This document shows positions 9,400 to 54,048 of a stretch of 64,000 bases of DNA, one piece after another (position 1 is the first letter of the stretch; each line of letters starts with the position of its first letter). The stretch is taken from contig JACRIW010000038.1 in NCBI GenBank assembly GCA_016215625.1, forward strand, positions 62,001 through 126,000. Reading direction: 5' to 3'. The notes under the pieces were generated by a model. It worked only from the letters and a program-made list of their open reading frames with translations. It did not search any database and had not been told where the DNA came from. This DNA is from Candidatus Eiseniibacteriota bacterium (lineage in GTDB: Bacteria > Eisenbacteria > RBG-16-71-46). A program made the translations under genes and the position numbers.

Positions 9400-10056
9400 A
9401 TGGACATCCTGCGCGTGGACACCGACCAGCCCGAACGCCGCACGCTCGACCACGCGGCGGAGGCCGTGCTGCGTGGCGGCGTCATCGCGTTCCCGACCGA
9501 CACCCTGTACGGGCTCGGTTGTTCGCTGTTCGACGTGTCCGCAGTCGACATGGTCGCGCGGCTCAAGCGCCGTCCCCCGAGCATGGCGGTGATCTCGTTG
9601 ATTCCCGACGCCGAGCAGGCGTGGGGACTCGCGGTCGCGATCTCGCCGCTCGCCGAGCGCCTGATGAAGGCGTACTGGCCCGGCCCGCTCTCGATCATCT
9701 TCCATGCGTCCGGACTCGTGCCCGAGCCCGTCCAGGGCAAGGGCGGCACGATCGCGCTGCGCTGCCCGAAGGACACGCTCTCGCACGCGCTGCTCGGGCG
9801 CATCGGCGGCCCGGTCGTCTCCTCGAGCGCGAACCTTTCCGGGCAGCCGCCCGCGGAGACCGCGGAAGAGGTCGTGAAGTATTTCGGGAACCAGCTCGAT
9901 CTCATCCTCGACGGCGGTCCGCGCCGCGGGGGACTGCCCTCCACGCTCGTGGACGTGACCGGCCCGAAGGCGAAGCTTCTTCGCCGCGGTGCGCTGGACG
10001 TGACATCGGTGCTCGGGGACTACGAAGACCTGACTTCTCCACGGGCCGGCGGTTGA
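9400..10056 (+). CDS. tsaC: L-threonylcarbamoyladenylate synthase (Sua5/YwlC/TsaC)
   Basis: GGVIAFPTDTLYGLGCSLFD, YWPGPLSIIF, ALRCPKD, SSSANLSGQP. Confidence 0.92.
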   Translation: MDILRVDTDQPERRTLDHAAEAVLRGGVIAFPTDTLYGLGCSLFDVSAVDMVARLKRRPPSMAVISLIPDAEQAWGLAVAISPLAERLMKAYWPGPLSIIFHASGLVPEPVQGKGGTIALRCPKDTLSHALLGRIGGPVVSSSANLSGQPPAETAEEVVKYFGNQLDLILDGGPRRGGLPSTLVDVTGPKAKLLRRGALDVTSVLGDYEDLTSPRAGG

Positions 10057-10089: not shown

Positions 10090-10584
10090 ATGCCGCCTGA
10101 TGAGAACATCGTCCGCGTGCTGTTCGTCTGCACGGGCAACACCTGCCGGAGCCCCCTCGCGGCCGCCGCGCTCCTCGCCGAGCTCGGTGACGACGCCGCG
10201 CGAGCACAGGTGGTCTCGGCGGGCACGGCGGCTGCGGAAGGGCAGCCGGCCAGCGCGCTTTCGCGCGCGGTCGCGGAGGCCGAGGGCATCGACCTCTCGC
10301 GGCACCGGTCGCGCCGTGCGGTCGCTCCGCTCGTGCGCGCCGCGGATTTCGTGTTCGTGATGGAGCCGCTGCACCGGGTCGCGATCGAGGCGCTCGGCGC
10401 CCCTCGCGAACGGGTGCACCTGCTGAGCGAGTATCCGGCCCCCGGGGAGCCCGGGATGCCGGTGAGTGATCCATTCGGAGCGTCGAAAGAAGCCTATGAA
10501 GAGTGCTGGCGGCGCATCCGCCACCACGTCCGGCGTCTCACGCCGGCCGTGCGGCAGGCGCTGAACGCACGTAACGCCTCATAG
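10090..10584 (+). CDS. Low-molecular-weight phosphatase, YwlE-like (candidate protein-arginine phosphatase)
   Basis: [16 protein letters not shown]-loop and [14 protein letters not shown] general-acid segment; synteny with sua5/ywlC, rpiB/ywlF and glyA. Confidence 0.88.
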
Positions 10585-10624: not shown

Positions 10625-11566
10625 ATGGCCATGAAGAAGAGCGACAAGATCTGGATGAACGGCACGTTCGTCCCGTGGGACGACGCGAAGGTCCACGTGC
10701 TGTCGCACGTCCTGCACTACGGCTCGAGCGTCTTCGAGGGCATCCGCGCCTACGAGACCAAGAATGGCCCGGCCATCTTCCGCCTCGGTGAGCACATCGA
10801 GCGCCTGATGATGTCGAGCAAGATCTACCGCATGGAAGTGCCGTACAGCGCGGAGCAGATCGAGACGGCGTGCCTCGAGACCGTCGCGGTGAACAACCTC
10901 AAGGAGTGCTACATCCGGCCGCTGGTGTACCGCGGCTACTCGCACGTGGGCGTGGATCCGCGCGGCACCCCGATCGAGGTGATGATCGCGGCGTACCCGT
11001 GGGGCAAGTACCTCGGCGAGGAAGCGCTCACGAAGGGCGCCTCGGTGAAGATCGGCACGTGGGCGCGCATGGCGCCGAACACGCTGCCCGCGATGGCGAA
11101 GGCCGGCGGCAACTACCTCAACTCGCAGCTGCTCAAGCTCGAGGCGGTCGAGGACGGTTACGACGAGGCGATCGCGCTCGACGTGCAGGGCTACGTGAGC
11201 GAAGGCTCGGGCGAGAACCTCTTCGCCGTGTACAAGAACGAGATCATCACCCCTCCGGTGAGCTCGAGCATCCTCTCGGGCATCACGCGCGACAGCGTCA
11301 TGCGCCTGGCGACGGACATGGGCTACAAGGTCCGCGAAGCCGTCATCCCGCGCGAGATGCTGTACATCGTGGACGAGCTGTTCTTCACCGGTACGGCCGT
11401 CGAAGTGACGCCGGTCTCGGCCGTCGACCGCATCAAGGTCGGCTCGGGCGAGCGCGGCCCGGTGACGAAGGCGCTGCAGGACGCGTTCTTCGGCATCGTG
11501 AAGGGCGACCTGCCGGACCGTTACGGCTGGCTGTCCATGGTGCCGCAGTCGGCCGCGAAGCGCTGA
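10625..11566 (+). CDS. ilvE: Branched-chain amino acid aminotransferase
   Basis: [60 protein letters not shown]. Confidence 0.94.
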
Positions 11567-11570
11567 TCCG

Positions 11571-12029
11571 ATGAAGCTCGCGGTGGGCAGCGATCACGCC
11601 GGGTTCCCGCTCAAGGAACTCGTGAAGGCCGAGCTCGTGAAGCTCGGGCACGAGGTCGTGGACGTGGGCACGCACTCCGGCACGGAGTCCGTGGACTATC
11701 CCGACTTCTCCTTCGCCGTGGCCGAAGCGGTCGCGGCGAAGACGGCGGACCTCGGCGTGGTCGTCTGCGCCACCGGCATCGGCGCCAGCATCGCCGCCAA
11801 CAAGGTCGTGGGGGTGCGCGCCTCCGTCGTGACGAGCGACGAGACCGCGCGCCTGACCCGGCAGGACAACGATTCCAACGTGCTCGCCCTCGGGGCCAAG
11901 ACCGCACCCAGCGCCGAGGACGCATTGCGCTGGCTGCGCGTCTGGCTCGACACACCGTTCGCGGGAGGCCGCCACGAGCGGCGCGTGAACAAGATCCGCG
12001 ACTACGAGAGCCGCGCCTCACATCCTTGA
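11571..12029 (+). CDS. rpiB: Ribose-5-phosphate isomerase B
   Basis: [52 protein letters not shown]. Confidence 0.93.
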
Positions 12030-12040
12030 CGGAGATTCCC

Positions 12041-13315
12041 GTGTCCCATCTGCAGTCGCAGGATCCCGAAGTCGCGAAGGCCATCGCGGCCGAACGCGGC
12101 CGCCAGGGCAGTTTCCTCGAGCTGATCGCCTCCGAGAACTTCGTCAGCGACGCCGTGCTCGAGGCGCAGGGTTCGGTGCTCACGAACAAGTACGCCGAAG
12201 GCCTGCCGGGCAAGCGCTACTACGGCGGCTGCGAGTTCGTGGACGTCGCCGAGAACCTGGCGCGCGACCGCGTGAAGCAGCTCTTCGGCGCCGACCACGC
12301 CAACGTGCAGCCGCACTCCGGCGCCTCCGCCAACCTCGGCGCCTACTTCGCCGCTTCCGAACCCGGTGACGTGCTGCTCGGCATGAGCCTCGCGCACGGC
12401 GGCCACCTCACGCACGGCCACGCCGTGTCGGTGTCGGGCAAGCTCTGGAAGGCGTACCAGTACGGCGTGCGAGCGGAAGACGGCCGCATCGACTACGACG
12501 AGGTCGAGCGTCTCGCGAAGGAACACCGCCCGCGCATGCTCGTCGCGGGCGCGAGCGCCTATCCGCGCCAGATCGACTTCCCGCGCTTCGCGGCGATCGC
12601 GAAGGAAGTGGGGGCGATGCTCATGGTGGACATGGCGCACATCGCCGGGCTCGTCGCCGCGGGGCTGCACCCGAGCCCGGTGCCGTACGCCGACTTCGTG
12701 ATGAGCACGACGCACAAGACGCTGCGCGGCCCGCGCGGCGGCATCATCCTGTGCAGGGCCGAGCACGCCGAAAGACTGGACAAGTCGATCTTCCCGGGTA
12801 TGCAGGGCGGCCCGCTCATGCACGTCATCGCCGCGAAGGCCGTGTGCTTCGGCGAAGCGCTCACGCCCGGTTTCAAGGCCTACCAGCAGCGCGTCGTGGA
12901 CAACGCGCGCGTGCTTGGCGAAACGCTCGTGGCGAACGGCTACGACCTCGTTTCGGGCGGCACCGACAACCACCTGCTCCTCGTGGACCTGCGCAAGCGC
13001 GGGATGACGGGCAAGGTGGCCGAGGAGGCGCTGCACAAGGCCGAGATGACCGTGAACAAGAATGCCGTCCCGAACGACCCGCAGAAGCCGTGGGTCACGA
13101 GCGGCATCCGGATCGGCACGCCCGCGCTCACGACGCGCGGCATGGGTACCGACGAGATGAAGCTCATCGGCGGCTGGATGGCCCGGGTGCTCGACAAGCC
13201 GGGCGACGAGGCGGTCGCGAAGGAAGTGCGTTCGCAGGTGCTCGAGCTGACGGCGGGCTACCCGCTGTTCAGCTGGGAGCCGGTGCGCCGTGGCGCTCCG
13301 GCCCGTGCAAGCTGA
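12041..13315 (+). CDS. glyA: Serine hydroxymethyltransferase (GTG start at 12041 preferred; TTG at 12026 possible)
   Basis: [54 protein letters not shown]. Confidence 0.95.
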
Positions 13316-49895: not shown

Positions 49896-50438
49896 ATGCT
49901 CTGCCAGATCTGCGGGAAGAACCCCGCGACGGTGCACTTCACGGAGATCCACGACAACAAGATGTCGGAGATCCACGTGTGCGAACGTTGCGCCGAGGAG
50001 AAGGGCATGGCCGCGTCCGCCTCGCAGCACAAGTTCGAGATCGCGGACCTGCTCGCCGGCATGGTGGACGCGATGACGCGCACGGACGAAGAGCGCGTCG
50101 GCCACGTGCAGTGCCCTCGGTGCGGCCTGCAGTATTCGAGCTTCAAGGAAACCGGCCGTCTCGGCTGCTCGGAGTGCTACGCCGCGTTCCAGTTCCAGCT
50201 GCGGCCGCTGCTGCGCCGCATCCACGGCGACACGCGTCACCGCGGCAAGACGCCCGCGCACGGCAGCGCCGGCGCCGAGCGCTCGCGCCAGATCCAGCGC
50301 CTGCACGACGATCTGCAGCGCGCGGTCGAGAGCGAGGAGTTCGAGAAGGCGGCGCAGATCCGCGACGAGATCCGCAAGCTCGAGGCCGAGCTTCAGGCCG
50401 AGCGAGCGTCCACCCCGAGCGTGGAGCGTCCGTCGTGA
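49896..50438 (+). CDS. mcsA: McsA-like protein (four CxxC-type zinc motifs and UvrB/C motif)
   Basis: MLCQICGKNPATVHFTEI...HVCERCAEEKG, CPRCGLQYSSFKETGRLGCSECY, LQRAVESEEFEKAAQIRDEIRKLE; directly upstream of mcsB. Confidence 0.9.
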   Translation: MLCQICGKNPATVHFTEIHDNKMSEIHVCERCAEEKGMAASASQHKFEIADLLAGMVDAMTRTDEERVGHVQCPRCGLQYSSFKETGRLGCSECYAAFQFQLRPLLRRIHGDTRHRGKTPAHGSAGAERSRQIQRLHDDLQRAVESEEFEKAAQIRDEIRKLEAELQAERASTPSVERPS

Positions 50439-51526
50439 GCGCGACCCCGCGCGACTTCGCGCAGCTGTTCGACACGACCAGCCCGTGGCTCACGGGTTCC
50501 GGTCCGCACTCCGAAATGGTGCTTTCCACGCGCATCCGTCTCGCGCGCAATCTTTCCGAGGTGCCGTTCACGCACCGCGCCCGCGAGGAGCAGCTCTACG
50601 GCGTGCTCGCCTCGGTGTCGGCGGCGGCGCAGAGCTCGCGTTCGTTCCACGACGGGCTGCTGCTCCGCATGAACGAGTGCTCGCCGATCGAGCGCCAGGT
50701 GCTCGTCGAGCGCCACCTCGTGAGCCACGAACTCGGTGACGGCGCCCGGCCGCGCGGCATCCTCGTCGCGCCCGACCAGCGCCTGAGCCTCATGATCAAC
50801 GAAGAGGACCATCTCCGGCTGCAGTCGCTGACACCCGGCTTCCAGCTCGCGGAAGCCTGGTCGCTCGCCGACCGCGCGGACGACGAACTCAACCAGTCGC
50901 TCGAGTTCGCGTTCTCGGAGGAGATCGGCTACCTCACGAGCTGCCCGACGAACGCCGGCACCGGCCTGCGCGCGTCGGTGCTCATCCACCTGCCCGCGCT
51001 CGTGCTTCTCGAGGAGATCCAGCGCGTCCTCAAGAGCATCATGCAGGTCGGACTCAACGTGCGCGGCCTGTACGGCGAGCACAGCGAGGTGATGGGCAAC
51101 CTGTTCCAGATCTCGAACCAGACCACGCTCGGCCGCAGCGAGCGCGACTCCATCGACAGCCTCGAGCGCGTCACGCGCCAGATCATCGAGACCGAGGAGC
51201 GCGCGCGCGAGCGCATGCTGCGCGACGCCCGCGTGCAGATCGAGGACAAGGTGTGGCGTGCGTACGGCACGCTGCGCTACTGCCGTTCGATCCACGCCCG
51301 TGAGGTCATCAATCTCTGCTCCGCCGTGCGTCTCGGCGTCGCGATGGAACTGCCGGGCCTGTGCCCGCTGCGCACGCTGAACGAACTGCTCGTGCTCACG
51401 CAGCCGGCGCACCTGCAGCGCATCCACGGAGCCGAACTTTCGCCCGCCGATCGCAACATCGTCCGCGCCCAGCTCGTGCGCGAGCGGCTCGCCGCCGCCG
51501 ACCACGGGACCGGGACGAATCCTTAG
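50435..51526 (+). CDS. mcsB: Protein-arginine kinase McsB
   Basis: VLSTRIRLARNLSEVPF, LTSCPTNAGTGLRASVLIHLPAL, GEHSEVMGNLFQISNQTTLG. Confidence 0.94.
   Translation: MSATPRDFAQLFDTTSPWLTGSGPHSEMVLSTRIRLARNLSEVPFTHRAREEQLYGVLASVSAAAQSSRSFHDGLLLRMNECSPIERQVLVERHLVSHELGDGARPRGILVAPDQRLSLMINEEDHLRLQSLTPGFQLAEAWSLADRADDELNQSLEFAFSEEIGYLTSCPTNAGTGLRASVLIHLPALVLLEEIQRVLKSIMQVGLNVRGLYGEHSEVMGNLFQISNQTTLGRSERDSIDSLERVTRQIIETEERARERMLRDARVQIEDKVWRAYGTLRYCRSIHAREVINLCSAVRLGVAMELPGLCPLRTLNELLVLTQPAHLQRIHGAELSPADRNIVRAQLVRERLAAADHGTGTNP

Positions 51527-51576: not shown

Positions 51577-54048
<2,472 letters not shown>

Follow-up and report, generated by a model that had tools for sequence, protein, structure and literature searches.

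The phospho-arginine system, in which McsB acts as the writer, ClpC as the reader and YwlE as the eraser, is described for Gram-positive bacteria in the papers found. A 64-kb stretch of DNA (hereafter the window) from a Candidatus Eisenbacteria genome (contig 4; genome size 4.2 Mb, completeness 93%) carries a gene for a small phosphatase. An earlier note made from the DNA letters had assigned this gene to the family of the Bacillus arginine phosphatase YwlE, and that assignment holds. Very probably it is a YwlE orthologue that would erase McsB marks before the marked proteins are degraded by ClpC with ClpP.

The phosphatase gene and its product

The open reading frame starts at ATG and encodes 164 amino acids; gaps of 33 bases and 40 bases separate it from sua5 and ilvE, respectively (Table 1). 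The sole Pfam match of the protein is LMWPc (PF01451; residues 10-150, 82.6 bits against a cut-off of 23.2), and both hallmarks of that family, CX4CR(S/T) and the DP acid loop, are present. Its key residues are the catalytic Cys14, Thr18 at the P-loop position termed PX5, Arg20 and the general acid Asp127; the Cys14 to Arg20 loop residues and Asp127-Pro128 are invariant across relatives in the alignment. Identity with the B. subtilis and G. stearothermophilus YwlE proteins is 31-34%. Cys7, Thr11, Arg13, Asp118, Pro119 and Phe120 of the B. subtilis enzyme all have equivalents in the window protein. Close relatives (59-76% identity) come from Candidatus Eisenbacteria metagenome-assembled genomes. 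One orthologue, 76% identical, lies on a contig titled Chloroflexi (L003, JANYJI010000121.1), which may be a mislabelled Eisenbacteria bin.

Table 1. Features of the window, with coordinates counted from its first base
Feature	Position	Strand	Evidence
sua5/ywlC, L-threonylcarbamoyladenylate synthase	9400..10056	+	TIGR00057 179 bits, above cut-off; PF01300
YwlE-type low-molecular-weight phosphatase	10090..10584	+	open reading frame; PF01451; PDB matches; trees; invariant columns
P-loop CTGNTCRS, residues 14-21	10129..10152	+	sequence, alignment, pattern match G000:C4:72129-72151
Acid loop SDPFGAS with general acid Asp127	10465..10485	+	aligned to Asp118-Pro119-Phe120 of B. subtilis YwlE
ilvE, branched-chain amino acid transaminase	10625..11566	+	TIGR01122 436 bits, above cut-off
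rpiB/ywlF, ribose-5-phosphate isomerase B	11571..12029	+	TIGR01120 152 bits, above cut-off; PRK05571
glyA, serine hydroxymethyltransferase	12026..13315	+	PRK00011 631 bits
mcsA, arginine kinase activator	49896..50438	+	NF053706 E=1.7e-52, 177.9 bits against cut-off 210; UVR motif
mcsB, protein arginine kinase (writer)	50444..51526, start approximate	+	NF002194 422 bits against cut-off 385
clpC, unfoldase, expected reader of phospho-arginine marks	51577..54048	+	two Clp_N repeats, AAA+ domains, UVR motif; start MHDKFTERV

The P-loop that the earlier note had picked out, CTGNTCRS, was confirmed: a degenerate DNA pattern for it matches the source genome once and is present in 37 of the 47 Eisenbacteria genomes. 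The motif is not a chance match, since the reversed control pattern matched none of the 47. The only other PF01451 gene of the source genome (L002:1450-1899, on contig 49) is ArsC-like, has the loop LHNSSRS and adjoins an aquaporin-type channel gene, which leaves the window gene as the single candidate of this genome for a low-molecular-weight protein tyrosine phosphatase (LMW-PTP) family member. That the window gene itself encodes a member of the thioredoxin-coupled arsenate reductase family is suggested by weak NCBIfam matches (28-29 bits against cut-offs of 174-215) but is extremely improbable, given a P-loop and DP general acid of the low-molecular-weight phosphatase type and the separate ArsC-like gene.

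Family placement

In a sequence search of the PDB, the top match of the window protein is G. stearothermophilus YwlE (4pic, E=1.6e-15). T. tengcongensis YwlE-RpiB follows at 1.7e-14 and the B. subtilis enzyme at about 8e-14, with Wzb-type proteins ranking below (2e-12 to 7e-8). This ranking is discriminating, because a truly classical paralogue, the second LMW-PTP of the relative G024 (CMGNICRS, DPYYGG), reverses it and places YwlE close to the end of the list.

Trees combined reference proteins with the syntenic orthologue from each of the 47 Eisenbacteria genomes. The largest, of 68 rows, included ten classical PTPs, five of them from the Wzb/Etp/AmsI group (E. coli Wzb and Etp among these); ArsC, whose long branch had blurred the backbone, was left out when the tree was rebuilt. 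The classical PTPs (Wzb/Etp/AmsI/YfkJ-type) split with support of 100/98 from the Eisenbacteria and Planctomycetota proteins and the YwlE references of Bacillus, Geobacillus and Thermoanaerobacter. The phylogeny that the earlier note had proposed as a check thus puts the window protein with YwlE. Branching on the YwlE side is poorly resolved, down to the exact sister group, so that the tree supports the description "YwlE-type, syntenic orthologue" and nothing finer.

The main competing reading, that of a classical Wzb/Etp-type tyrosine phosphatase counteracting a BY-kinase and regulating the export of exopolysaccharide, is improbable. The fold is shared, and a Foldseek search with the predicted model (pLDDT 86, pTM 0.84; confident in the core, low around residues 110-130, before and at the acid loop) places V. 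vulnificus Wzb (7dhd) marginally above YwlE. The two scores are almost alike, and the fold is accordingly taken as neutral rather than as support. Among NCBIfam models, none for YwlE matches the window protein, and those for classical phosphatases match below threshold (Etp-type, 55 bits against a cut-off of 247; Wzb, 49 bits against 243), as do those for ArsC. Against this reading, constraining the window protein among the ten classical PTPs costs 40 log-likelihood units and is rejected (p-AU 0.0156), so the protein does not fall among Wzb and Etp, the placement that the earlier note had named as refuting its reading. Moreover, the window protein has CTGNTCRS and DPFG where classical enzymes have C(V/I/T/M/L)GNICRS and DPY. 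Finally, E. coli wzb and etp adjoin wzc and etk, whereas the window gene has housekeeping neighbours and no adjoining BY-kinase gene.

Gene neighbourhood

The order sua5, phosphatase gene, ilvE, rpiB and glyA is as the earlier note gave it, with all five genes on the same strand, and resembles the B. subtilis order of sua5 (ywlC), ywlE, rpiB (ywlF) and glyA. A longer cluster, purD-purE-sua5-ywlE-ilvE-rpiB-glyA-moxR, recurs phylum-wide among the 47 Eisenbacteria genomes, with ilvE or rpiB lost in several families. A Pirellulaceae genome has sua5-ywlE-rpiB. Additionally, some of these neighbours are found fused to the phosphatase: one Eisenbacteria genome (G010) encodes a YwlE-RpiB fusion (L016:967-1944, minus strand), and several McsB-bearing Planctomycetota encode Sua5-phosphatase fusions, commonly with Ser at PX5 (L115:653-1708, minus strand, in which both PF01300 and PF01451 were confirmed, and similar proteins in L116-L130). 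The kept link to sua5, fusions included, might stem from a function connected with t6A synthesis or simply from operon history.

McsA, McsB and ClpC

The mcsA-mcsB-clpC genes lie about 39-44 kb downstream of the ywlE-type gene. The best PDB matches of the window McsB are McsB structures (E to 3e-98), and a profile search found it in single copy in the source genome. The earlier note's distance of about 40 kb holds for the window and its family. The ywlE-mcsB distance is 40-45 kb in four other genomes (G020, G024, G025 and G037) and about 950 kb in G013; proximity is therefore family history. Towards the C-terminus of McsB (encoded at about 51455-51500), the Firmicutes ERD stretch is DRN in the window and ERN in most relatives; the Arg-Asp pair of ERD is part of a phospho-arginine-binding regulatory site in Firmicutes McsB.

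Across the phylum, 45 of 47 genomes have McsB, and of the two without a match one (G030) is only 65% complete. Distant families contributed 19 further Eisenbacteria loci with McsB, where ClpC adjoins in every case and McsA in 18, the lone exception (G006) being a locus that ends at a contig edge. The Pirellulaceae genome has McsA-McsB, without ClpC in the stretch examined. B. subtilis carries both McsB and CtsR. CtsR (PF05848) was matched in 0 of the 47 Eisenbacteria genomes in a search that gave no match in the B. subtilis control either; the McsB search likewise gave no match in that control, and the control genome set was treated as uninformative, not as a sign that the searches had failed.

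The arginine-marking genes are thus near-universal in Eisenbacteria, a phylum for which a limited literature search gave no paper on McsB or ClpC. The conserved phosphatase gene, together with the full set of arginine-marking genes, suggests that an uncultured, double-membraned phylum operates a way of marking proteins that is mostly known from Gram-positive bacteria. Furthermore, since these genes are near-universal and CtsR was not found, the system may be able to serve quality control independently of regulation by CtsR.

Variation at the specificity residue

Thr at PX5 steers YwlE towards phospho-arginine and Ile towards phospho-tyrosine, according to work by Fuhrmann and colleagues cited in PMC8001253, and the T11I variant of PtpB hydrolyzes pNPP faster (PMC8001253). 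The earlier note had taken this Thr as the determinant of phospho-arginine specificity. Thr is indeed present in the window protein, in all 20 members of its own family and in 38 of 47 syntenic orthologues across the phylum, but it is no clean marker. The remaining nine orthologues have Ile (G001, locus L025; G002, L019; G004, L053; G006, L021; G012, L030; G016, L017), Val (G003, L039, read from a contig that starts inside the P-loop; G005, L020) or Gln (G011, L018), and McsB is present in all nine genomes. PX5 Thr alone is therefore an imperfect predictor. McsA and ClpC are also present in these genomes where the contig allows. Their McsB proteins all have the CPTN motif, and eight of nine have NEEDH (NDEDH in G001); the G005 copy contains one in-frame TGA, explained perhaps by a sequencing error, perhaps by genuine damage to the gene.

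Given the well-supported branches of the tree, the PX5 residue must have changed at least twice. The nearest solved structures to the Ile-type protein of G002 are still YwlE-RpiB and YwlE, so this is a changed YwlE and not a replaced gene. The acid loop varies as well. The segment was called YwlE-like in the earlier note, and its DPF does align with that of B. subtilis; this Phe occurs in 19 of the 20 proteins of the window protein's own family but is limited to that family, the position elsewhere in the phylum being Ile, Leu, Val, Ala, Met, Cys or Tyr.

It is conceivable, though held with less than even confidence, that the non-Thr lineages either retain phospho-arginine specificity without Thr or have an eraser that drifted to another substrate, with phospho-arginine left unerased or erased otherwise. 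If so, the window protein, with its Thr, would serve as the reference for a natural PX5 series. The Thr, Ile, Val, Gln and Ser orthologues form a natural set for testing the Thr/Ile rule, which now rests on few engineered mutants.

Distribution across phyla

The CTGNTCRS pattern is found in 84 of 201 Planctomycetota and 2 of 248 Actinomycetota genomes, as against the 37 of 47 in Eisenbacteria; one of the two Actinomycetota matches contains no true CRS loop (Cys or Trp in place of Ser). McsB is present in 191 of the 201 Planctomycetota, near-universal in that sample, and in 35 of the 248 Actinomycetota genomes. Pooled over the three phyla, the association of Thr with McsB is very strong but confounded by phylum (119/271 with McsB against 4/225 without), and inside Planctomycetota it is weak (83/191 against 1/10, p=0.048), so that phylum membership explains most of it. 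Thirty McsB-bearing Planctomycetota genomes without CTGNTCRS were sampled for the Sua5-fused phosphatase. In the readable proteins PX5 is mostly Ser, with some Met, Arg, or Thr in CSGNTCRS; Ser retains the PX5 hydroxyl, which is absent from Ile and Val.

These distributions also bear on whether a phosphatase of the YwlE lineage might serve a mainly local role, in Sua5/t6A synthesis or metabolite dephosphorylation, and not act on McsB products. Adjacency to sua5 is wider than proximity to mcsB, as seen in the sua5-ywlE pairs of Eisenbacteria, the Planctomycetota fusions and the distant mcsB of G013, and orthologues persist despite an altered PX5. Adjacency alone, however, is no proof of a biochemical connection. 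Moreover, Actinomycetota, most of which have no McsB, almost never carry CTGNTCRS, and YwlE of B. subtilis targets McsB and McsB products (PMC8370763). A mainly local role is accordingly considered very unlikely.

Proposed function

For the preferred reading, a YwlE-type eraser of McsB marks, the observations cover the identity of the protein, its family placement, the conserved gene cluster and the co-occurrence with McsA, McsB and ClpC; by homology, specificity for phospho-arginine and the eraser role are then most likely. By the same homology, Cys14 would attack the phosphate of phospho-arginine, forming a phospho-cysteine intermediate, while Arg20 and the P-loop backbone would hold the phosphate. 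Asp127 would act as the general acid that protonates the leaving guanidine, after which water would free the phosphate, and Thr18 at PX5 would tune the pocket towards phospho-arginine. By analogy with Bacillus (PMC8370763), marks set by McsA-activated McsB could be reversed on proteins and on McsB itself, and their removal would rescue proteins ahead of degradation by ClpC and ClpP.

Comparison with known systems

Three groups of phosphatases offer likenesses to the window protein, and a fourth provides the contrast. The YwlE proteins of B. subtilis and G. stearothermophilus (1zgg, 4kk3, 4pic) are alike in P-loop, acid loop and fold, in their sua5, rpiB and glyA neighbours and in the presence of McsA, McsB and ClpC in the genome. 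Unlike Bacillus, the window host belongs to a diderm candidate phylum in which CtsR was not found, ilvE is inserted before rpiB, and mcsAB-clpC lies 40 kb off.

T. tengcongensis YwlE-RpiB (4egs) is likewise a CTGNTCRS phosphatase tied to RpiB, and G010 has the same type of fusion. Its acid loop is DPYG, whereas the window has DPFG and separate genes with ilvE between them. S. aureus PtpB, likened here by description, shares the PX5 Thr and has reported phospho-arginine phosphatase activity (PMC8001253). The Wzb/Etp/AmsI tyrosine phosphatases share the PF01451 fold and the catalytic Cys, Arg and Asp, but they differ from the window protein in having PX5 Ile, a DPY loop, kinase and polysaccharide-export neighbours and a separate branch of the tree.
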